Source: Eunapius fragilis (Eukaryota > Porifera > Demospongiae > Spongillida > Spongillidae). Taken from it: a stretch of 64,000 nucleotides of DNA. Where the stretch lies: contig OY811971.1 of assembly GCA_963681505.1 (NCBI GenBank), forward strand, positions 13,863,232 to 13,927,231, written 5' to 3'. Both the position numbers and the translations under genes were made by a program. The notes below the pieces were generated by a model. It made no database searches. It had not been told where the DNA came from and worked only from the letters and a program-made list of their open reading frames with translations. Below are positions 377 to 28,242 of the stretch, one piece after another; within the stretch, counting starts at the first letter, position 1, and every line of letters starts with the position of its first letter.

Positions 377-579
377 CATGATAACATGTTTTAATTATAT
401 ATAGAACACTGCATGTACTTGTAGTTATTAAACATTACAACTTCAGTAAAAATTAATGCATGTATATATAGGACCATGACAATAAAGCTTTTCAAATCAG
501 GATTTTGTGTGTGCTTGCTGGCATACAGATTGAAGAACGTATTTACCCCACATGTTTGTTTTTATTTTGAACCCCCTAG

Positions 580-1386
580 CTGCATATATGCCTGAACCCA
601 ATGTGGACTGGCCTCAAGCAATTAGTGAGGACATGTCTCAACCAATTAGTCTGGAAACCAGTGACAGCACAATTGGTAGGACTGAAAAGCATATAACTTA
701 ATATGTTTAAACTTTAATGATTCCTTTGTAGTGTCCACATGTAAGGTCACCAGCTCCAGGCCAGTATGTACGTATGGATCTGAATATTTATCATTACTAT
801 GTGTTACTATGTGTTACTTTGAAGGTGAGAACTTGTGTCAAGCTAAATCTCCAAATGCTACACTGAGCCCTTCCACCTGCATTGAACAACTTAGGTAAAT
901 GCGCATGCATGACACAAACAATGGCAGGAAGTAGTGTAACACATGCATTCATGCATTTAGGGAGGTTACAGTATCCCATTCGCCAAGCAGAAAGAGATCA
1001 CTTTCAGTCACCACAACAAGGCAATGTAGATCACTATCAAGACGACTTCATTTAACTCTGAATTCTGAAGGTATAACCCAGAAACAAATAAAGCTTTTGA
1101 TTTATAACTGAATTGTCTTTATGCATGCATAGATTTTGTGAATCAGTTTGTTGCAGAAGACAAAACAGAAGGTTTGTGAAATCTTTTAAAATTATTAGCT
1201 CCAAATTTCACTAATATTTCACTTAGTTTGGCATTGTGCTGTGTGTTTGGAACTGGAATGCTGTGATGATGGATGGTGGATCCAGTGTGATTGATGCTTG
1301 TGTGGATGCATGGAGAGTGTGTTGCACTGGCTAAACGTGTACAAAGGAAGAAGTGGTATTGTCCTCACTGCATTCAATTCATCTAA
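580..1386 (+). pseudogene. 3' end of a PHD-finger gene, finger broken
   Basis: A chain of exons with AG/GT borders can be read: about 580-675, 732-763, 825-894, 961-1070, a 15-base microexon 1157-1171, and a last exon 1227-1386. Reading phase is kept from 825 onward; the join between 763 and 825 is unresolved. The upstream exons encode a Ser/Arg-rich stretch. The last exon encodes a PHD zinc finger: CAVC, then CCDDGWWIQCD, a C, then WMHGEC, and finally WYCPHC just before the stop, which gives the C4-H-C3 ligand order. Between the third and fifth ligands there is an in-frame TGA and a one-base deletion, so the finger cannot be translated as it stands. PHD fingers usually read histone H3 tails. 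The gene could be a pseudogene or a TE-derived gene, or the two breaks could be sequencing errors. Confidence 0.6.
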
Positions 1387-1624
1387 ACAAATGTTGTCAA
1401 TATTTGCAATCATATGTGATGTGTGATTTTGTGATTGTGGTTATTATGTCAGTTTTTAATACATGCTATTAAACTTTGATAAAGTAACCAATCTATACAT
1501 GGACCTTTTTCCTGCGCGGGCATATAAACATACAAGCATCACGTGCGCGTATATACGTACTGGTACATGCATGTATGACATCTATACGATAAAGATTGCA
1601 CTGACACATGTTCTTCCGTACACA

Positions 1625-2195
1625 TGGTGGTTTCATACGCATGCATGGTATGGCTCATTTATTAGACTTTGTGAGTAATATTTCTTCACGTGAATGTTTC
1701 ATACGCATGCTATGGCTCATATAATATACTCTGTGAAGAATTTTTCTTCACGTGAATGTTTCATACGCATGCTATGGCTCTATATACTCTGTGAAGAATT
1801 TTTCTTCACGTGACTGTTTCATACGCATGCTATGGCTCTATATACTCTGTGAAGAATTTTTCTTCACGTGAATGTTTCATACGCATGCTATGGCTCATAT
1901 AATATACTCTGTGAAGAATTTTTCTTCACGTGAATGTTTCATACGCATGCTATGGCTCTATATACTCTGTGAAGAATTTTTCTTCACGTGAATGTTTCAT
2001 ACGCATGCTATGGCTCTATGAAGAATTTTTCTTCACGTGAATGTTTCATACGCATGCTATGGCTCTATATACTCTGTGAAGAATTTTTCTTCACGTGAAT
2101 GTTTCATACGCATGCTATGACTCGTATAATATACTCTGTGAAGAATTTTTCTTCACGTGAATGTTTCATACGCATGCTATGGCTCATATCATATA
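1625..2195. repeat. Tandem repeat, about 60-bp unit, 9-10 copies
   Basis: Units contain TTTCATACGCATGCTATGGC followed by an AT-rich part and GAAGAATTTTTCTTCACGTGA. The last part can fold on itself (GAAGAA against TTCTTC), so each unit carries a small hairpin ending in the palindrome CACGTG. Unit length varies from about 48 to 67 because of small AT-rich indels. No coding potential is evident. Confidence 0.9.
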
Positions 2196-2269
2196 CTTAT
2201 TCTTAATTCAAGTGAAGTTTATATACGCATTCTATGTCAGCCTGGAAAATCTCTTTAATTCTTTGTCGA

Positions 2270-2326
2270 AGCGTGTACATTTACATGTACATTTACATGT
2301 ACATTTACATGTACATTTACATGTAC
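2270..2326. repeat. 12-bp tandem repeat (ACATTTACATGT)
   Basis: Four or more head-to-tail copies of TACATTTACATG form a short self-complementary array. The following 700 bases, to about 3070, show no gene or repeat that I can support. Confidence 0.9.
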
Positions 2327-3075
2327 ATGCTTGCATAAAAATATGCAGCTTTGATTCACGCCCTTGTTTAGTAACGTATGAGCGTTTTATTCACGTGAAT
2401 ACTCACAAAAATAGTTCTTTGTTAAACCCCTTCGCAAATCGTGCATACTATCCTTGATTTTACCGTGAGAATCAATAATTTTTTTTCACTGTGCCACAGC
2501 AAGAAAAGTGCATCATGCAAATCAATATTCTTGATTTTGAATTGATTCGTAACTTACATTTAGGTACATATTGTCAACAGTTTTACCAGGTATGTAAACA
2601 TTTATTTGTACCAGAATGTAAGTGACAAATCAATTAAAACTCAAGACGCGTTATTTTTGCTCTGTCCATCTCTCCTCTGACCTAGCTAGCTGCCTTTAAA
2701 ACCAATCACTACACTCATTGACTGCCGCGTAGTTATAGAACAAACTGGGCATCACAGTGTTGACAGTATTCGCTCCTACAAGTACCGGCGTGAGAAATAA
2801 AATGCAATACATTAATTCAACACGTGCTTTAGTGAGTATTATAATGTAAACGCTATAGACCTTATGCACCAAACCATGAACTCATTTATTTACTTTAAAT
2901 TGGAATAGCATTAACAGTATTCTTTCAGAAGCATACATTTCAAATGGTTTAGGTTGCTATGCATGTAGCTAATTTATATTGAGCGATAATTAATTGGTTA
3001 CTAGTACTTGCTACGAACGCGACGCTGCCACTCAGTGCCTAATTATAAATTGTGGTCAGACACGCTCGGGAAAGA

Positions 3076-3608
3076 CCTGTCGAAAAAATTCCACCGGAAT
3101 TTCGACATTTTTAGGAAGTTTCTAATTTCACAAAATGCCAGCATTTCCAATTATTTACACATCGCATCTACCGACAACGGTCAGTAAACCACTAAACTAA
3201 CGGATGCAGAAATATACGGTTTATCACTATTATGGCGATCAACGAGGTCATATCGTCCTAATAAGTCAGAAAAAGACAATCGATGACACGGCCAGACCCA
3301 AGGTCACTGTAGCAGCAGGCATCGCTAACTTGCATGGCTGATTCGTTGTCGTCTCAGTTTTGCAATCCAGAGCGTACGGCCCATGCAGTACGCCGGGGTG
3401 TAGCACTCGAACATCTTGCGTCTTCTTTACTTCCAATTTGTGTGTCTGGCCTTTCCTCATCTTCCGCCGCTTCCTTGTGCGTTGGACCAAATTAAACTAT
3501 CGTGACGGCTAAAAAGATAACCGGCATTTTTTGGTGGAATTTGGAGAGCATTTCAGTTTTGCAATATTACGGTCGGAATTTTTGTGTGGCATTTTTTTCG
3601 ACAGGCCT
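3076..3608. mobile_element. Putative non-autonomous element with inverted ends
   Basis: The left end CCTGTCGAAAAAATTCCAC matches the reverse complement of the right end, CCTGTCGAAAAAAATGCCAC, with few differences. The roughly 530-bp interior has no recognisable transposase. A basic 74-codon minus-strand ORF (3266-3490) has no recognisable family and is probably chance. I could not find a clean target-site duplication. From 3610 to about 4200 I see nothing further. Confidence 0.5.
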
Positions 3609-12955: not shown

Positions 12956-13339
12956 GATAGAGGTGCAGGACCTCGCATCTGATACATGTATGTCTCGTTA
13001 TCAGAACTCATAACTACTTTGAGAAGTTCTTCTAACTGAACTGAGTGAAGCATGTTGTTGATGAGCTTATATACAGGTATACCCCAGGGCAGGTCTATGT
13101 AGGTTTTATGCAGGTCTACATGCATGTACATGCATGCCCAGGCAGGTCTGTGCAGGTCAACATGCAGGCTTGTGCAAGTGTGTTGATACAGGATTGATGT
13201 AGTTTGACACCTTAGTGAGGCTCTTGCTAAGTTCACATTAAACACTGTTTCTATCAAACAGTACATTATGTAATGACATACTGTATGGTGTACATGTAAT
13301 CACGTGATCATGTGATGTGTTCTACAGGAGATACACATC

Positions 13340-13506
13340 TCCAAAATCATCACCCCCTCCACAATCACCTCTCCCCCGACACCCCTCCCCCATCACCTAT
13401 CCCCCTACATCCCTCCCCATCACCTCACCCCCTACATCCCTCCACCATCACCTCTCCCCTACACCCCTCCCCCATCACCTCTCCCCCTACACCCCTCCAC
13501 CATCAC
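13340..13506. repeat. C-rich minisatellite next to the UBE2N exon
   Basis: Units of CCCCTCCACCATCACCTCT-type sequence (about 18-20 bp) on the + strand. They abut the GT donor of the UBE2N exon, so they form the start of the following intron. The same array with the same border is duplicated at 16375-16508. Confidence 0.85.
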
Positions 13507-13647
13507 CTCTCTCTATGGCTTTGGCCTCATTTGTCTTCCACTCCTCAGCTACGTCGTTGGCCAGAGGGTCATCAGGGTTAGGGGCACTGAGGAGGGCCTG
13601 GATGGACAGGAGGACTGTCCTTATTTGGAAGGCGGGGCTCCACTTGT
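13507..13647 (-). CDS. UBE2N: UBE2N (Ubc13) exon
   Basis: Minus-strand exon encoding [20 protein letters not shown], then [20 protein letters not shown], then EAKAIE. This is an almost exact match to the C-terminal half of UBE2N/Ubc13, the E2 that pairs with UEV proteins to build Lys63-linked ubiquitin chains. The acceptor at 13649-13648 and donor at 13506-13505 are canonical, and the phase (1) matches the preceding exon. The last short exon (ARAWTRLYAMNN in other animals) was not found. Confidence 0.9.
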
Positions 13648-16292: not shown

Positions 16293-16580
16293 GTGTTATG
16301 TAATGACATATGATGTACATGTAATCATGTCATCATGTGATGTGTTCTACAGGAGATACACATCTCCAAAATCATCACCACACCCCTCCCCCATCTCCCC
16401 ACACCATCACCTCTCCCCTACCACCCCTCCACCATCACCTCTCCCCCATCACCCCTCCACCATCACCTTTCCCCCTCAACACCTCCCCCTATACCCCTAC
16501 ACCATCACCTCTCTCTATGGCTTTGGCCTCGTTTGTCTTCCACTCCTCAGTTACGTCGTTGGCCAGATCGTCTTCTACAG
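16293..16580 (-). pseudogene. UBE2N: Partial duplicate of the UBE2N exon and its 3' flank
   Basis: 16509-16570 encodes [18 protein letters not shown] on the minus strand, the second half of the UBE2N exon at 13507-13647. The match continues through the C-rich intron array and about 70 bases beyond it (shared GTGTTCTACAGGAGATACAC at about 13318 and 16342), so this is a DNA-level duplication of about 280 bp and not a processed copy. The first half of the exon is missing and is replaced by the 3' end of the Ginger-type integrase ORF. Confidence 0.85.
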
Positions 16581-16585
16581 GACCA

Positions 16586-18930
16586 TCACTGTTCTTCCTT
16601 ATCAAAATGGCATTGTGATGAGGTTGGTGAAAGGTATGGTTTAAGGTGAACACCGTTTACACTCTTAGTAACCTTTTTGGGGCTTTCAACTGATGCGAGA
16701 GAGTATAGACCTTTCCCAAGACTCTTTGTTATGATAAATGGTCCCACATACTTGCAATCCATCTTTCCACCTTTTCTCTTCTTTCTTGTAAAATCCTTCT
16801 CTAGAACTTTGGTTCCTATTTGATAGGCTTTAGGATTTGCATGTCTCCTATCATAATTTTGCTTTTGTTTGATTTGCGCTTTCTCAATATTCTCCTTCAC
16901 TTGTTTTACAACACTGCATCTTTGCTTGGTTATTTCTTCAATGTCCAATACATTATCTTGGAAAAACAGACCATGATTACCAACTACTTCTACCTGCTCC
17001 ATCTTTAAGTCGATGGGAAGAGTCACTTTTCTTCCAAACATGATTTCGAAAGGAGTATACAGCGTAGATTCATGGCATGAAGTGTTGTAAGCAAAAATAC
17101 AACCATCTAACACCATGTCCCAATTGTCTTTCTTTGAAGCACAAAATTTTACAACCATTGTTTGCAAAGTCTGATTGAACCGCTCTACCAATCCATTGGC
17201 CTATAAGGGGACATGATTGTGGTTTATAAATCACATGCTCAATGCAACATGTTCATGAACTGTAAATTATATTCATACTTATGTTACAGTGTGTCCTGCA
17301 ATAAAAAAAAACTTGGTTATAAGTTTAGATCATAAGTAAGATATACCAGCTTATTTAATTCATAACACCACACTTAACACGGTCAGCAGTTTTCCTGTTT
17401 AGACATATAGTTAATATTCAAAACTCACTCATGTTATTATGGTTTTTTTTCTCCCAATTTTCCTTCATTGTGAGACACCGTGTATATATGCCAAATCATA
17501 CACTACTTTCCTCCGAGAAAATCAAGCACCCATTCAAATCACTAAACGTACATCTCATCAAGGCCTTTTGAGGTATTGATTACTCATGTCTATGAAAACT
17601 TGAACTTTCTATGATTAAAAATAAAAAGCTTGCTCCTTCAATTGCATGTACATTGTAGAATGAATCAGTTAAAGACAATGCCTAGTACAATAAGATGCAA
17701 CAGCTAATTTTTGGTGTACAGAAAGCTAGCGTATGTATGAAGCAATGAATCATCAAACCTGAGGATGATATGCTGTTGTAAATCTCTGCTCAATCCCCAG
17801 TAGCTCCATTAGGTGTTTGTTGAGGTCATTTTTGAATTCCGTTCCATTATCAGTTGTGATTACTTTAGGCAAGCCCATCCTCATAAAAATCTGTGTAATT
17901 GAATATATGCATGTGTCACACAATGAATAAAACATGAACCTGAAAGTTTTCAGTATCTACTACTGAGCACACAATATTTCACATAGAAACAGAACTGAGA
18001 TATTGATTGACCTACATGCATATGTTCAAATACATGTGTTCTAATTTCCACATCAATATTTTATCACACTTATTTCTATGCATGCGTTATACCCCACCAC
18101 TGTTAATCCTACAGGTACCAAGCTCTCCCGATTTATATATTACTATAATGTTTCCAGCACACCCTAACAACAGCAACTGAATACATCTCATTCTTTGATA
18201 CCTTGAATAGTGCATGTGCAACTCCAACAGCATGTTTTGAAGGGAGAGGAACAGCTTCAACCCACTTGGAAAAATAATCGCAAACTGTTAAGATGTACAG
18301 ATTTCCTGATTTTGACTCCAAAACGGGTCCCACAAAATCAACTCCTATGTGATGCCATGGGGACCTGACCGGAACAGGATGGAGCTCGGGAGCAGTGTGG
18401 ACAAGCTTCCTATTTGCACGTTGACAGATGTCACATCTAGCAACCTACATGCAAGAGGAGCGTTAAATATAAAAACAGTGAATATCTAACACAATACTAC
18501 ATGCCTACCATGTTTGTCACGTCTTTTACCATTCCAGGCCATCTAAATCGCTCATTAATCTTTTTCAACGTACGCTTCACTCCCATGTGCCCTGCTGTTA
18601 GATCATTATGACATCCATGAAGAATTCGTTGTTGTTCTTCTGTGTTTACAACATATCGTATCTCACTCCCCTAGAGCCGAATTAAAAACAAAACCATGTC
18701 GATCAACAAAGAAAGCAGCAGTTCAAAGCACTTTGTCCTAGCCTCACCTTTCCTTTGCTCATCTTTTTGAAAAATAGTTCTCCATTCTTTAAGACAAATT
18801 TCGCTGCTTTTCTTCTGATGCATCGCTTTCGCCCTTCACTTGCGCCAGCTGGGTAACTTTTCCTCCTCAGGTACTGGTAAGCCTCTTCAACCAAGTTTTC
18901 CTTCACTTCATCCTCGTCAGTACTCGACAT
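16586..18930 (-). CDS. Intron-containing Ginger-type integrase (DDE), apparently intact
   Basis: Five minus-strand exons: 18930-18748, 18670-18509, 18444-18202, 17890-17759 and 17200-16586. Every exon length is a multiple of three and every intron is phase 0 with AG/GT borders, giving 444 codons. Start MSSTDEDEV. Domains in order: a Lys/Arg-rich N-terminal module (residues 10-55); the HHCC zinc site (HGCHNDLTAGH then CDICQ, residues 79-120); the RNase-H-like core with GVDFVGP, TTDNGTEF and ANGLVERFN, where the second Asp and the Glu are separated by exactly 35 residues; and a GPY/F module (CKYVGPFIITKSLGKGLYSL). The fold matches Ty3/Gypsy integrases, but there is no gag, protease or reverse transcriptase, as in Ginger DNA transposons and domesticated integrases such as GIN1 or KRBA2. 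The last 15 residues are encoded by sequence at the UBE2N duplication junction. Confidence 0.8.
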
Positions 18931-19015
18931 TTTGCTCGCAAGGTTCTTCCACGTGTTTGAGGCGATAACACTACCAATACGCACGCGCGGACTGGTTTTA
19001 GTCATACCGGACAAT

Positions 19016-19109
19016 TATTGGCACCAAAATTAGTCCGGCCGGACTAATTTTGGCGACCTAAATTGGTCCGGCCGGACCAATTTTTTCCCGGACCGAAATT
19101 TTCGTGACA
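19016..19109. mobile_element. Ginger-like terminus with GTCCGGCCGGAC palindromes
   Basis: Upstream of the integrase start lie two copies of the palindrome TAGTCCGGCCGGACTA / TGGTCCGGCCGGACCA within repeats of CCAATTT and CCAAAATT. The block ends at TTTTCGTGACA (19109), which fits the YNACA-3' terminus of Ginger elements. Closely related blocks occur at 28130-28242 and, in looser form, at 51166-51250. I could not find the partner terminus beyond the 3' end of the integrase gene. Confidence 0.5.
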
Positions 19110-19139
19110 TGTCCTCCGCGTCCACGTGCACCTCCCCAT

Positions 19140-19408
19140 CTTAGTCTTACATCACCTTCTCCGCCACCGTCTTCCCTAGCACCGCCGTCTCCCCTTGGGC
19201 CACCGTCTCCCCTTGCACCGCCGTCTCCCCCTGCACCGCCGTCTCCCCTTGCATCACCTTCTCCCCTTGCATCACCGTCTTCCCTTGGACCACCGTCTCC
19301 CCCTGCATCGCCGTCTCCCCTTGCACCGCTGTCTCCCCCTGCATCGCCGTCTTCCCTTGCACCGCCGTCTCCCCTTGCACCGCCGTCTTCTCCTGCATCA
19401 CTATCTTG
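19140..19408. repeat. 15-bp minisatellite (CCGTCTCCCCTTGCA)
   Basis: About 17 copies of a 15-bp unit, CCGTCTCCCCTTGCA, with TCA/CCA variants. On the minus strand the frame 19480-19058 reads as an Asp/Gly/Ala/Arg-rich repeat (GARGDGGA type) starting MDLSEHDLRQMEVDQDSDAG. This could be a real low-complexity N-terminal exon, but the repeat alone explains its openness. Confidence 0.8.
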
Positions 19409-19529
19409 ATCTACCTCCATCTGTCTCAAATCATGTTCTGATAAATCCATTACATGTACTTTGCAAAGTGATGTGAGCATAGTTTTAGAAATGCTTTTAT
19501 AGGCCTCACGAAGCTGGTGAAGAGGCTGG

Positions 19530-19869: not shown

Positions 19870-22800
19870 ACTGCCTCTCCTCATCATCCCTCTCCTCATC
19901 ATCCCTCTACATGCACAAGGTAAAATATGCATAGCATGACAGCTTCATTCAAACTGTAATGGCTGCAGTGAATACGGGAATGATAGAGATTCTGTATGAA
20001 AATTGAAAGGGGGAAGGTAGGATGGGGTAGAGACATTTGATCAACATAATTTCATGTTCATTGTCCTCATCTTAAAATCCCTCTTCTCATTATCCCTCTC
20101 CTCATCATCCCTCTGATCATCATCCCTCTCCTCATCATCCCTCTCCTCATCATCCCTCTCCTCATCATCCCTCTCCTCATCATCCCTCTCCTCATCATCC
20201 CTCTCCTCATCATCCCGCTCCTCATCATCCCTCTCCTCATCATCCCTCTCCTCATCATCCCTCTCCTCATCATCCCTCTCCTCCTCATCCCTCTCCTCAT
20301 CATCCCTCTCCTCATCCTCCCTCTCCTCATCATCCCTATCCTCATCATCCCTCTCCTCATCATCCCTCACCTCATCATCCCTCTCCTCATCATCCCTCTC
20401 CCCTCATCATCCCTATCCTCATCATCCCTCTCCTCATCATCCCTCTCCTCATCATCACTCTCCTCATCATCCTTCTCCTCATCATCCATTTCCTCGTCGT
20501 CCCTCTCCTCCTCATCCCTCTCCTCCTCATCCCTCTCCTCCTCATCCCTCTCCTCCTCATCCCTCTCCTCCTCATCCCTCTCCTCACATCATCCCTCTAC
20601 TCATCATCCCTCTCCTCATCATCCCTCTCCTCATCATCCCTCTCCTCATCATCCCTCTCCTCATCATCCCTCTCCTCATCGTCCCTCTCCTCATCGTCCC
20701 TCTCCTCATCATCCCTCTCCTCATCATCCCTCTCCTCATCGTCCCTCTCCTCATCATCCCTCTCCTCATCATCCCTCTCCTCATCGTCCCTCTCCTCATC
20801 ATCCCTCTCCTCATCATCCCTCTCCTCATCATCCCTCTCCTCATCATCCCTCTCCTCATCATCCCTCTCCTCATCATCCCTCTCCTCATCATCCCTCTCC
20901 TCATCATCCATTTCCTCGTCGTCCCTCTCCTCCTTGTCCCTCTCCTCCTCATCCCTCTCCTCACATCATCCCTCTCCTCATCATCCCTCTCCTCATCATC
21001 CCTCTCCTCATCATCCCTCTCCTCATCATCCCTCTCCTCATCATCCCTCTCCTCATCATCCCTCTCCTCATCATCCCTCTCCTCATCATCCCTCTCCTCA
21101 TCATCCCTCTCCTCATCATCCCTCTCCCCATCATCCCTCTCCTCATCATCCCTCTCCTCATCATTCCTCTCCTCATCATCCCTCTCCTCATCATCCCTCT
21201 CCTCATCATCCCTCTCCTCATCATCCCTCTCCTCATCATCCCTCTCCTCATCATCCCTCTCCTCATCATCCCTCTCCTCATCATCCCTCTCCTCATCATC
21301 CCTCTCCTCCTCATCCCTCTCCTCCTCATCCCTCTCCTCCTCATCCCTCTCCTCACATCATCCCTCTCCTCATCATCCCTCTCCTCATCATCCCTCTCCT
21401 CATCATCCCTCTCCTCATCATCCCTCTCCTCATCATCCCTCTTCTCATCATCCCTCTCCTCATCATCCCTCTCCTCATCATCCCTCTCCTCATCATCCCT
21501 CTCCTCATCATCCCTCTCCTCATCATCCCTCTCCTCATCATCCCTCTCCTCATCATCCCTCTCCTCATCATCCCTCTCCTCATCGTCCCTCTCCCCATCA
21601 TCCCTCTCCTCATCATCCCTCTCCTCATCATCCCTCTCCTCATCGTCCCTCTCCTCATCATCCCTCTCCTCATCATCCCTCTCCTCATCATCCCTCTCCT
21701 CATCATCTCTCTCCTCATCATCCCTCTCCTCATCGTCCCTCTCCTCATCATCCCTCTCCTCATCATCCCTCTCCTCATCGTCCCTCTCCTCATCATCCCT
21801 CTCCTCATCATCCCTCTCCTCATCATCCTTCTCCTCATCATCCCTCTCCTCATCATCCTTCTCCTCATCATCCCTCTCCTCATCATCCATTTCCTCGTCG
21901 TCCCTCTCCTCCTCGTCCCTCTCCTCCTCATCCCTCTCCTCATCATCCCTCTTCTCACATCATCCCTCTCCTCATCATCACTCTCCTCATCATCCCTCTC
22001 CTCATCATCCCTTACCTCATCATCCCTCTCCTCATCATCCCTCTCCTCATCATCCCTCTCCTCATCATCCCTCTCCTCATCATCCCTCTCCTCATCATCC
22101 CTCTCCCCATCATCCCTCTCCTCAGCATCCCTCTCCTCATCATCCCTCTCCTCATCATCCCTCTCCTCATCATCCCTCTCCTCATCATCCCTCTCCTCAT
22201 CATCCCTCTCCTCATCATCCCTCTCCTCCTCATCCCTCTCCTCCTCATGCCTCTCCTCCTCATCCCTCTCCTCACATCATCCCTCTCCTCATCATCCCTC
22301 TCCTCATCATCCCTCTCCTCATCATCCCTCTCCTCATCATCCCTCTCCTCATCATCCCTCTCCTCATCATCCCTCTCCTCATCATACCTCTCCTCATCAT
22401 CCCTCTCCTCATCATCCCTCTCCTCATCATCCCTCTCCTCATCATCCCTCTCCTCATCATCCCTCTCTTCATCATCCCTCTCCTCATCATCCCTCTCCTC
22501 ATCATCCCTCTCCTCATCATCCCTCTCCTCATCATCCATTTCCTCGTCGTCCCTCTCCTCCTCATCCCTCTCCTCCTCATCCCTCTCCTCCTCATGCCTC
22601 TCCTCACATCATCCCTCTCCTCATCATCCCTCTCCTCATCATCCCTCTCCTCATCATCCCTCTCCTCATCATCCCTCTCCTCATCATCCCTCTCCTCATC
22701 ATCCCTCTCCCCATCATCCCTCTCCTCATCATCCCTCTCCTCATCATCCCTCTCCTCATCATCCCTCTCCTCATCATCCCTCTCCTCATCATCCCTCTCC

Positions 22801-23706
22801 TCATCATCCCTCTCCTCATCATCCCTCTCCTCATCATCCCTCTCCTCATCATCCCTCTCCTCATCATCCCTCTCCTCATCATCCCTCTCCTCATCATCCC
22901 TCTCCTCATCATCCCTCTCCTCATCATCCCTCTCCTCATCATACCTCTCCTCATCATCCCTCTCCTCATCATCCCTCTCCTCATCATCCCTCTCCTCATC
23001 ATCCCTCTCCTCATCATCCCTCTCCTCATCATCCCTCTCCTCATCATCCCTCTCCTCATCATCCCTCTCCTCATCATCCCTATCCTCATCATCCCTCTCC
23101 TCATCATCCCTCTCCTCATCATCCCTCTCCTCGTCATCCCTCTCCTCGTCATCCCTCTCCTGATCATCCCTCTCCTCATCATCCCTCTCCTCCTCATCTC
23201 TCTCCTCGTCATCCCTCTCCTCGTCATCCCTCTCCTCGTCATCCCTCTCCTCGTCATCCCTCTCCTTGTCATCCCTCTCCTCCTCATCCCTCTCCTCCTC
23301 ATCCCTGTCCTCATCATCCCTTTCCTTATCATCCTTCTCCTCATCATCCCTCTCCTCATCATCCCTCTCCTCATCATCCCTCTCCTCATCATCCTTCTCC
23401 TCATCATCCCTCTCCTCATCATCCCTCTCCTCATCATCCCTCTCCTCATCATCCTTCTCCTCATCATCCCTCTCCTCATCATCCCTCTCCTCATCATCCC
23501 TCTCCTCATCATCCCTCTCCCCATCATCCCTCTCCTCATCATCCCTCTCCTCATCGTCCCTCTCCTCATCATATATCCCTCTCCTCATCATCCCTCTCCT
23601 CATCATCTCTCTCCTCATCATCTCTCTCCTCATCATCCCTCTCCTCATCATCCCTCTCCTCATCACCCCTCTTCTCATCATCCCTCTCTTCATCATCCCT
23701 CTCCTC
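19870..23706. repeat. 15-bp CTCATCATCCCTCTC minisatellite, long array
   Basis: About 240 copies of a 15-bp pyrimidine-rich unit on the + strand. It starts at 19870-19908, is interrupted at 19909-20069 by receptor intron sequence, and continues from 20070 to 23706. Variants (CTCATCGTC, CTCCTCATC, CATTTCCTCGTCGTC) form a higher-order pattern: a block of CTCCTCATC units ending in CTCACATCATC recurs near 20585, 20962, 21354, 21956, 22273 and 22605. All frames on both strands stay open; the 930-, 509- and 474-codon frames are artefacts. The array fills intron 1 of the truncated receptor copy. Confidence 0.97.
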
Positions 23707-25187
23707 TCCTTATCTTTATTTTCTAAACTTCATCTTCTCATTGTCACCCTTCTTACCACTCTTTCATATAGTGTGACAAGGAGTGTGAAAATGAGAGGGA
23801 CGATGAGGATAAAGTTAAGATGAGGAGGGTGGAGATAGACAAAATCTGATAATTTTAGAGTGAATGTAAAACCCCACAGATATAATAGCTCATTATTGTG
23901 GTAGTCAATTAAATCAGTGTAGCCACATTGAATTCAACACATGCCCTGTTGGCCGAGGTCAACTCACTGTTTTTTTAATGCTCTGTGATGCCAAAAATGA
24001 AGTTCTGATTAGAAAAGTGCTCTTTTGCAGAAACTGAAAAACTAGTACCAAACATGGCCCTACACAACATTTTTGAATAATGGAGAAAAATTTAACATCA
24101 GGAAAATTGGGTAAGTGTTTACTGGAATCAAAAGTCTTCATCTTTTGCATGCATGTAGATGTAGATGGAACAAAATTGCATAGACAGATAAGGTAAATTA
24201 ACGGAGAAATTATGTATCTGTGCTATCGTAAAGTGGTTTAGATTTTAAAATGTAGTAGTCTTGTGCAATGCACACTTATAGTATGTAATAGATTGGTCAC
24301 ATTTTCTTGCAGTGGATATTCAAGTGACATTTGTTCTCAACCCTAGCAATACCCTTCACGATCTTGAGATATCCTGGATCCCATGGCCAGTAGTAATCAC
24401 TCATATCTAGGTATCTTAATTACCTACAATAAGAAGTTCCCTTTATCTATTACAGGTAGGCAATGTGACTATATCCACTGTGAGAGTTGTTGGTTCTGAT
24501 AACTCTGTTGGTCAAGGTTGTACTGTATGTACCTCTTCACCATGTCTCTATCTATGTCCACCACGTCACACAAGAGGCTAATAATTACAGCATCTTTGTG
24601 ACTTCCATAAATAGAAATGGAACTTCAGGCTCACAAATTAGCACTGCCATATATGGTATATTCAAGATATACAGTAATCCATCATCCCATGAATTGTGCA
24701 CTGTGCATTGTATGATGTGGTGCATGAAATGGGACGGTGCAATTATGCATGAAACCCATCATAATCTTTTGATTTATGGTGGTGTCTTGCAGGTCCTACC
24801 AATGCTCTCTTTCATAATGCCTCATTTTTGAGCTACAATAACTCTGTTGCTTATTCATTTCTGAACAACCAATCCCTCTACTGTTTGGTGTGCTGCAGTA
24901 CTGATCCCTCTGTTCCTCCTGACTCAAGTGTGTACAACATCTCCTCTACCAGAAGCACAGAAGTCACTGTCTCCCTACAAGGCCTAACTAGTGGTCAGAT
25001 GTACTACTGCAAGGCAGCAGCTACCAGCACTAACTTTGCACACTGCACTGATCCAGTGGTTGGAGATGTGAAGATGTACTTCAGCTTTGTGACAAGTCTC
25101 ATTTCCATATCTCCTCCCACATCATGTTGGTATAGGGTACATTCCCATAACTCATCCCACTACGTACATGTTGGTATAGGGTAGCAA
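19909..25187 (+). pseudogene. Receptor copy A, exon 1 missing, frameshifted
   Basis: Homologous to the intact receptor at 33755-38128. The match begins at the exon-1 donor (CACAAGGTAAAATATGCATA at about 19917), so the large first exon with the signal peptide is lost. Exons 2 (24313-24392), 3 (24456-24655) and 4 (24793 to about 25100) remain. Exon 3 is 200 bases against 196 in the intact gene because of a 4-base CTAT insertion, which shifts the frame after CTSSPCLYL. Exon 4 is intact and encodes the FN3-like segment with CCSTDPSVPPDSSVYN and TSGQMYYCKAAATS. The transmembrane exon survives only as a degenerate piece in the module at 25320-26240. Confidence 0.8.
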
Positions 25188-26286: not shown

Positions 26287-27850
26287 ATTTACGGTACTTC
26301 AGATCAAGTAAAGAGAATAGCCGCTGAACACGAGCGGTATCAAGCAGAGCCAGAAAAGAAACGGTCTGCTAAACACGAAAGCTGTCAAGCAGATCCAGAA
26401 AAGAAGCAGACCGCAAAACGCGAGTGATATCAAGCAGAGTCAGAAAAGAAACGGTCCGCTACATGTAAAAGGCAACGTTATTGCATGGGAATATGAATAT
26501 GGTGGCGTTGTGTGGTGAGGCCACTCTCCAACATCTTAGTGCTAGCAAACAACATATGGAAGAGCATTATTATGCTGATAATCACTTAAGTGATGTTCAA
26601 GATGATGGCAATCCGCTTTATGCGTGGAAGTGTGTGACATATACATTAGAAGGCTGTAAAAGTGAAAGCTTAAATGTCTATGGTCATAAAAGTACTCAAA
26701 TGGATGACCTTGCATTTGTATTGGAGTCTTCCAAGCATATCACAGGACCTGAATTGCCAAATCCCCTTAGTGAGATGGTTACAAGTACTCCAACTTTAAG
26801 TGGAGGATATTTTACGCCAATGGAAGATGGAAACTTATCTCCAATACCAGTTTGTAATGTGCTGAGCCACTATAAGAAGAGCTGTATTCAACCTGCACTT
26901 TCCACCACTGCCTCTATCCCAAACCCCACATCCTCGCCTGCTTGTCCATCACAGGTTCCTCAATCTAGCAGCTGTCCACAGAGAGATTTTCCAAAGAGTC
27001 CAAATTCACAAATGCAATTAAAAATTGTTATCACAAAGGATAAATGTCACTTGAAAAGCAAACACCATAAGAGCCACGGTGAAAAACTTGTAGTGATTCC
27101 TAGTGAAGAAAGTAAGTGATTGTGATTATATTCAATTTTATAAAAATCATGCATTTGTTTATTTCCACAGAACAAAAGAAATCTCAAGGGTTACAAGTTT
27201 GGATACCACGACTGAACCTACTAGCTGAAGACAACCAGGCCATTAAAGAAGGAAAATGGTTATCAGATTGTGTTATAAATGCTGCACAGGAACTACTGAA
27301 ATCCATCAGTACTTACATTGGCGAGCTACAAATGTTACATGTTTCGGGGAATCACTGGATTACAATAGCAAATAATGGATGCACAGGTGGAGAGATAAAG
27401 GTTTATGATAGCATGGGGCATTCAGATCTTCCAGAGGAGACTAAACAGCAAGTAGCTGCGTTGATTTTTACCTCAGTCAATAAGATCACACTGACATTTC
27501 AGACTGTTCAAGGGCAACAAGATAGCAGTGGTTGTGGTCTATTTGCGGTTGCTTTTGCTACATCTCTTTGTTTTGGATCAGATCCAAGTACCTTAATGTA
27601 TGATTCGGCAACCCTAAGGTCCCATCTTAAGCATTGTTTTGTATCAGGAATCATGGAGCCTTTCCCAGCAAGGAAATAAAGGCTCGAAGGCCATTTAGCC
27701 ATGTACAATATGATAAATTTTGCAGTTGCAGGCTGACAAAAGGAAAGGAAAAGATGGCCAGATGTGACAATTGTCTGGAATGGTTCCACAAATCATGTGA
27801 AAAATTCTTGGTTGTGTGTTCTCTAAGAGCCAGAAGTGGTTTTGCCACTC
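26287..27850 (+). pseudogene. Ulp1-type cysteine protease plus PHD finger, frameshifted
   Basis: 26287-26470 encodes degenerate repeats of the YQADPEKKRSAKRE type, with a stop. The exon 26481-27111 (Ser/Pro-rich, no known domain) joins in frame to 27171-27679 across a 59-base intron with a perfect GTAAGT donor. The second exon encodes a C48/Ulp1-like peptidase with catalytic His in NHWIT, Asp in VYDSMG, and Gln and Cys in QGQQDSSGCGLF, all present. The reading frame then breaks near 27675. In the next frame 27700-27810 encodes PHD ligands (CSCRLTKGKEKMARCDNC, EWFHKSC), and after a second shift come KWFCHSCNSS and a stop. Ulp1-family enzymes cleave SUMO-like tags. Ulp1 and PHD domains have been reported in Ginger1-type transposon proteins, and a Ginger-like terminus lies at 28242, so I read this as a transposon-borne gene, now dead at its PHD end. 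Confidence 0.65.
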
Positions 27851-28099
27851 TTGTAACTCCTCAACATAAATGCATTTTTAATTCGCCATTTATTGCATGC
27901 ACATGCAGCATGCATGTTTTTTGCTTATATATACATCATTCACTAACCATTTACTGTGCATGCACTATGTATTTATTCCATTCATGTATTACGCTTACGT
28001 ATGTGTACATGTGCAAGGCGCCGGCCTCTACTACAGTGTATGTACCCCAGATATTGTATAGATTGAACAATCAAGCCTGCTAGGACAGGCTTTGCGTGT

Positions 28100-28242
28100 T
28101 TTGTTAAGTACGAACTCATTGGACGAAAAGCGGACCGTTTTTGGCAAGGTAGGACCATTTGTGGCGGACAGATATGGTCCACTTTTGGCGACCAAAATCA
28201 GTCCGGCCGGACCACATAGGTAGGACCACTTTTGCCATGACA
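28100..28242. mobile_element. Ginger-like terminus downstream of the Ulp1/PHD gene
   Basis: Contains GTCCGGCCGGACCA and repeats of GGTAGGACCA and CACTTTTGGCGACCAAAA, ending TTTTGCCATGACA at 28242 (YNACA-3' form). It is clearly related to the block at 19016-19109. The opposite end was not found. Confidence 0.5.

Follow-up and report, generated by a model that had tools for sequence, protein, structure and literature searches.

A spliced Gypsy-type integrase gene of the sponge Eunapius fragilis as the probable front half of a truncated Ginger1-like DNA transposon

According to Bao et al. 2010 (PMC2836005), Ginger1 DNA transposons are bounded by terminal inverted repeats of about 40-270 bp with a 5' TGTNR end, produce 4-bp target duplications, and encode a protein in which a YPYY motif precedes the H2C2 zinc finger, a GPY/F motif follows the Gypsy-type DDE core, and the C-terminus has an OTU or Ulp1 protease domain, in some cases together with a PHD finger. 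The published target is CCGG in 75% and CCGT or ACGG in 24% of the cases (PMC2836005). In Table 1 of the same study, the layouts nearest to the one described here are those of Ginger1-9_HM (Ulp1 and PHD, 2 introns) and Ginger1-5_HM (Ulp1, 4 introns). GIN1, GIN2, and Imagin are described as host genes derived from Ginger1 (PMC2836005, PMC3424704, PMC12863088). No Ginger1 element of a sponge was found among the titles and abstract openings of a partial literature collection.

The window analyzed in this study, a stretch of 64,000 nucleotides of the Eunapius fragilis genome, contains a gene that the initial annotation described as an intact Gypsy-type integrase gene without retroelement partners, representing either an active Ginger or a host gene under selection. 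Comparison with related sequences of the same genome indicates that this locus very probably is a copy of a Ginger1-like DNA transposon that inserted recently and has lost its 3' part. In its complete form, this transposon is predicted to encode a single spliced integrase-protease-PHD protein. Most likely, the copy in the window does not represent a host gene, nor is it a mobile element in complete form.

Gene structure and truncation in the window

The gene occupies positions 18930-16586 of the minus strand and consists of five exons with 61+54+81+44+204 = 444 codons (Table 1). Its four introns of 77, 64, 311, and 558 bp are all in phase 0, are bounded by GT...AG, and each contain an in-frame stop codon. 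Joining the frame exon by exon across these GT-AG borders confirmed the proposed five exons, the exclusive use of phase-0 introns, and the 444 uninterrupted codons. The introns are further supported by a sister element (L043), since its GT/AG positions agree with those of the window gene at the level of codons. This element shares 57-84% protein identity with the window copy when compared piece by piece, and the same codons are used for both borders of introns 3 and 4. For introns 1 and 2 this applies to one border each, the donor of the first and the acceptor of the second, and their opposite borders were not located in L043.

Table 1. Positions of the element remnant and of its exons in the 64-kb window.
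Feature	Position	Strand	Remarks
Surviving element part	16567..19109	minus	2,543 bp; element positions 1-2545 of 4,231
Element 5' terminus	18931..19109	minus	TGTCACG..., first base 19109; palindromes 19032-19045 and 19065-19078
Presumed remaining half of target duplication, partner lost	19110..19113		GACA on element strand, outside 5' end
Truncation junction	16567..16568	no strand	L039 match stops at 16567; local repeat beyond
Exon 1	18930-18748	minus	61 codons; YPYY-type motif Y26-P27...F45...F53/F54
Exon 2	18670-18509	minus	54 codons; first half of H2C2 zinc site, H82 and H89
Exon 3	18444-18202	minus	81 codons; C119, C122, first catalytic Asp D151
Exon 4	17890-17759	minus	44 codons; second catalytic Asp D210
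Exon 5	17200-16586	minus	204 codons and stop; catalytic Glu E246, GPF 393-395

The domain assignment of the initial annotation was borne out in all parts. The protein matched the Pfam families Integrase_H2C2 (9.1e-21) and rve (2.8e-12), and its best relative of solved structure is Ty3 Gag-Pol (2e-33, residues 66-430). Script-based checks located the HHCC zinc site at H82/H89/C119/C122, the catalytic triad at D151/D210/E246 with the proposed D-35-E spacing of 35 residues between D210 and E246, and the GPY/F module as G393-P394-F395. A Y-P...F...F pattern at residues 26-54 (Y26-P27...F45...F53/F54) was recognized by eye rather than by a motif profile, and the same pattern is present in L043 and in three further elements (L016-L018). 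It corresponds to the motif that Bao et al. 2010 term YPYY (PMC2836005).

A complete sibling of the window copy, L039, delimits what is preserved. From 19109 to 16567, including the 5' terminus and all introns, both sequences share 98.9% identity over 2,545 bp. Near the end of the frame the window copy lacks 2 bp that are present in L039, and this deletion creates its stop codon (16588-16586); the DNA match continues beyond it to 16567. The term intact thus holds for the integrase half only, and the open frame ends at a lesion. At 16567 a local repeat begins that also occurs at 13269-13573. Judged from this alignment, the 444 codons are what is left of the first part of a gene of 910 codons. 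The protease part, the PHD-like finger, and the 3' terminus are missing, and a search of the 64-kb window revealed no 3' end of this subfamily. A 3' end at 28242 was considered as the missing terminus and rejected, because it belongs to the sister subfamily. With the second half of the protein and the 3' terminus gone, the window copy would no longer be able to move as a unit, and the proposed active Ginger can be dismissed for this locus.

The rejected 3' end (TTTTGCCATGACA, flanked by CACG) terminates a 5'-truncated back half of a sister element at 26517-28242 on the plus strand, which shares 95-97% DNA identity with the protease/PHD region of L043. The window hence contains the front half of one subfamily and the back half of a different one. 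Two repeat arrays were also observed, an 18-bp GC-rich tandem array directly adjoining the 5' end of the element (19110-19443) and a long array of units of about 12 bp at 20050-23780.

Complete sibling, copies, and insertion sites

The element L039 is 4,231 bp in length, has the ends TGTCACG...GGGACA, and is flanked on both sides by a 4-bp duplication, GGCC. Its ends form imperfect inverted repeats, with an alignment that contains mismatches and extends to about 102 bp; the local score is 69, compared with at most 27 in 200 shuffles. Joining both flanks closes a Gypsy-type integrase reading frame with Integrase_H2C2 and rve matches, which provides one empty-site reading. A neighboring frame upstream of this host frame appeared RNase H-like by eye.

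L039 encodes 910 amino acids without an interrupting stop, in the order integrase, acidic repeat stretch, Cys-rich stretch, Ulp1-like protease, and PHD-like finger. The H2C2 zinc finger and the DDE core of the Gypsy type were recognized here by Pfam as well. The match to Peptidase_C48 (22.1 bits) exceeds the cut-off of 20.7, and the PHD match (20.2 bits) is below the Pfam cut-off of 24, with PDB PHD chains matching down to 3.7e-6. The Cys-rich stretch gave no Pfam match up to E = 1.

The protein search covered the 219-Mb genome, and the best 95 of 4,581 first-look candidates were scored, so that all counts are lower bounds. Among the matches listed were copies on C1 (one at 8.07 Mb, multi-exon, 96% over residues 240-443), C4 (two, 92% over residues 240-409), and C12 (one, 97% over residues 240-356), as well as more distant relatives at 42-70% and, at 30-40%, OTU-type elements mixed with retroelement integrases. 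In the DNA around six matched loci, similarity extends through the introns and the 5' end. The search for further copies by the terminus, as suggested in the initial annotation, was productive. The 5' terminus matched at least 81 genome positions, at least 16 of them close (at least 91% identity over at least 139 of 179 bases, 40 candidates scored), which gives at least 15 close 5' ends besides that of the window. For the 3' terminus there were at least 73 matches, at least 12 of them close (at least 85% over all 223 bases, 40 candidates scored). Among the matches listed, each of the 12 close 3' ends has a close 5' end as its partner, in elements of 1,295-4,478 bp, and four close 5' ends, including that of the window copy, are unpaired. 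Copies with identical flanks (four on C9, two on C4) were counted as one site each, resulting in 12 sites. Shared flanks and duplications were observed for L040/L041, L043/L044, and the C9 set L047, L054, L055, and L058; such sets are attributed to segmental duplication or to duplicates in the assembly, and not to independent insertion.

When the sister subfamily was included and duplicates were counted once, matched 4-bp duplications were present at 12 of the 15 sites readable at both ends. These were GGCC, GTCC, GTCC, GGAT, GTTC, GGAC, GTAC, GGCA, TGCC, GGTA, GACC, and GACC. Three sites were unmatched (C8 5.66 Mb, C1 7.59 Mb, C4 2.30 Mb) and two more were unreadable (C8 7.36 Mb, C12 0.88 Mb). 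The pattern GNNC fits 8 of the 12 matched duplications, and none of the 12 is CCGG, CCGT, or ACGG.

These features suggest how the complete element may move. Its Gypsy-type integrase with YPYY, H2C2, DDE, and GPY/F parts would act as the transposase. It would bind the palindrome-rich termini, presumably excise the element, and catalyze the joining of the TGT...ACA ends to target DNA, the strands of which would be cut 4 bp apart. The 4-bp duplication would then arise by repair. The Ulp1-like protease and the PHD-like finger may have roles in this process. In the window, the 5' end and the integrase half have been kept, the 2-bp deletion has generated the present stop codon, and a deletion or rearrangement at 16567 has removed the remainder of the copy.

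Four derivatives (L049, L053, L059, L060) share an exon-1 insertion and a deletion from element position 441 to 3329, by which the integrase core is gone. Three of these are located at sites with different matched duplications (GTTC, GGAC, GTCC). Their dispersal thus indicates that the derivatives moved as such and were mobilized in trans. Through the deletion, the acceptor of intron 1 has come to adjoin the protease part in phase; a new split protein with exon 1 fused to the protease part was nevertheless dropped as an explanation, because the shared exon-1 insertion shifts the frame in all four examined derivatives. In L040-L042 the middle of the element is missing instead. Inside L053 (C4 12.93 Mb) a RecQ-type helicase-like stretch was noticed by eye.

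Such mobilization by some source in trans, together with the intact catalytic residues of the window copy, would fit an expressed integrase-only copy which, without being a host gene, is still able to join the ends of elements and helps in trans to move derivatives lacking the integrase, or else disturbs the complete transposase. As the complete L039 is a simpler source of transposase and half of the domain set is missing from the window copy, we regard this as quite improbable. Equally improbable appears a Ginger1-like family with an altered, loose GNNC target that splits its functions, with open and catalytically complete integrase-half copies like that of the window acting in trans on elements without integrase, and others carrying the protease/PHD half only.

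Divergence and the host gene alternative

When the window copy is compared with L039, exons and introns show 12 substitutions each, in 1,335 bases (0.9%) and 1,010 bases (1.2%), respectively, and a single one is located in the 178 bases that precede the start codon. The coding changes are 9 nonsynonymous and 3 synonymous, with a ratio of about 0.8 that derives from 12 changes only. Between these copies no sign of coding constraint is apparent, although an N:S comparison of 12 changes would also be compatible with weak constraint. Because 5.1% of all single changes would create a stop codon, 12 random substitutions keep the frame open with a probability of about 0.53. The open frame of the window copy therefore is weak evidence for selection.

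These figures bear on the second proposed alternative, a host gene domesticated from a Ginger1-like transposase and kept under selection in an integrase-only form, similar to GIN1/GIN2 or Imagin. The 444 open codons and the intact splice sites, zinc residues, and catalytic residues are in agreement with domestication, and known domesticated genes of such origin have introns (PMC2836005, PMC12863088). However, a complete mobile sibling differs by only about 1%, exons have diverged about as much as introns with 9 nonsynonymous to 3 synonymous changes, and the stop codon results from a 2-bp deletion. A domesticated gene would be expected in single copy and without terminal repeats, whereas here the 5' repeat is still attached and at least 16 close 5' ends exist in the genome. 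Many degenerate copies, one part of the refuting condition named in the initial annotation, were found as well. Domestication is accordingly disfavored and considered highly improbable.

Some observations also stand against the truncated Ginger1-like transposon copy as explanation. The integrase half is open and retains all catalytic and zinc residues, by which a protein might still be produced. Moreover, 3 of 15 sites are unmatched, the targets are not those of Ginger1, the PHD match is below the cut-off, and the terminal repeats are imperfect.

Relation to retroelement integrases, Ginger1, and domesticated genes

A tree of 18 chosen integrase sequences from this genome only, rooted at the midpoint, placed the window copy, L039, L043, L013, and L014 in one group (99/99). 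This group, the OTU-type sequences, and L021 were split with 100/99 from eight sequences taken for retroelements. L021 is on a long branch with unsure placement, and the order within the ten non-retroelement sequences is unresolved in the tree. The eight include L029, and the domain check covered the other seven. Of these, four encode a reverse transcriptase in the same frame (L023, L027, L030, L035), and L022, L024, and L026 have only gag- or protease-type domains in a neighboring frame. L023 and L030 show the domain order SCAN, zinc knuckle, protease, integrase, reverse transcriptase, and RNase H, with the integrase before the reverse transcriptase. This arrangement of integrase before reverse transcriptase is that of Gmr1-like Gypsy elements.

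The domain set H2C2-rve-GPF and the best PDB match, Ty3, could be taken to indicate that the locus is the integrase remnant of a Gypsy LTR retrotransposon. This has next to no probability, as the sibling with its 910-amino-acid protein is spliced, has inverted ends, gave no match when searched for reverse transcriptase or RNase H families, and falls apart from the eight retroelement integrases of the genome (100/99, midpoint root). For L039 the remnant is refuted by the inverted ends and the missing reverse transcriptase. The statement that the gene is without retroelement partners proved correct, because the complete element never had a reverse transcriptase.

Three further integrase genes, L016, L017, and L018 (C21 2.23-2.25 Mb, C6 2.20 Mb), are 36-37% identical to that of the window, have an intronless integrase part, and carry the YPYY-type motif. 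In L016 the frame continues beyond the integrase and there matches OTU weakly (18.6 bits against a cut-off of 23.3). By these similarities, L016-L018 are probably Ginger1 elements of the OTU type that share the genome with the family described here.

The locus itself is ordinary: the DNA transposon is present in multiple copies, and this one is young and truncated. It provides a clean example that an open spliced integrase frame alone is no sign of domestication, because introns are found in such transposons as well and the frame of a copy that is still young remains open by chance. If confirmed, the combination of an Ulp1-plus-PHD tail, four introns, and a non-CCGG target would widen the knowledge of Ginger1-like elements. 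These family-level points are of modest interest, for transposon specialists.

With Gypsy/Ty3 integrases the gene shares the H2C2, DDE, and GPY/F parts and the Ty3 match over residues 66-430. In contrast, the full element is spliced, lacks reverse transcriptase, RNase H, and gag, and has an Ulp1-like and PHD-like tail. GIN1/GIN2 and Imagin resemble the window copy as spliced integrase-like genes without the C-terminal protease of the transposon and with H2C2 and YPYY motifs (for Imagin according to PMC12863088). However, these genes are conserved in place across species, whereas the window copy is multi-copy, differs by about 1% from a sibling that is mobile, and shows no sign of constraint. 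The DDE triad, lost in Imagin, has been kept in the window copy.

The proposed link to Ginger held, and both of the specific alternatives offered with it failed. By comparison with the published descriptions, the family resembles Ginger1 in a single transposase with YPYY, H2C2, DDE, and GPY/F parts, in its introns, and in its low copy number. L039 adds the C-terminal Ulp1-like protease and PHD-like finger, and the TGTNR 5' end, inverted ends, and 4-bp duplications are found in L039 and the family, the window copy retaining the 5' end only. Differences from Ginger1 are the loose duplications (8 of 12 GNNC, 0 of 12 CCGG/CCGT/ACGG), the imperfect terminal repeats, and, for the window copy, the absence of the C-terminal half and the 3' end. 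Because the target differs from that of published Ginger1, the element is named Ginger1-like.
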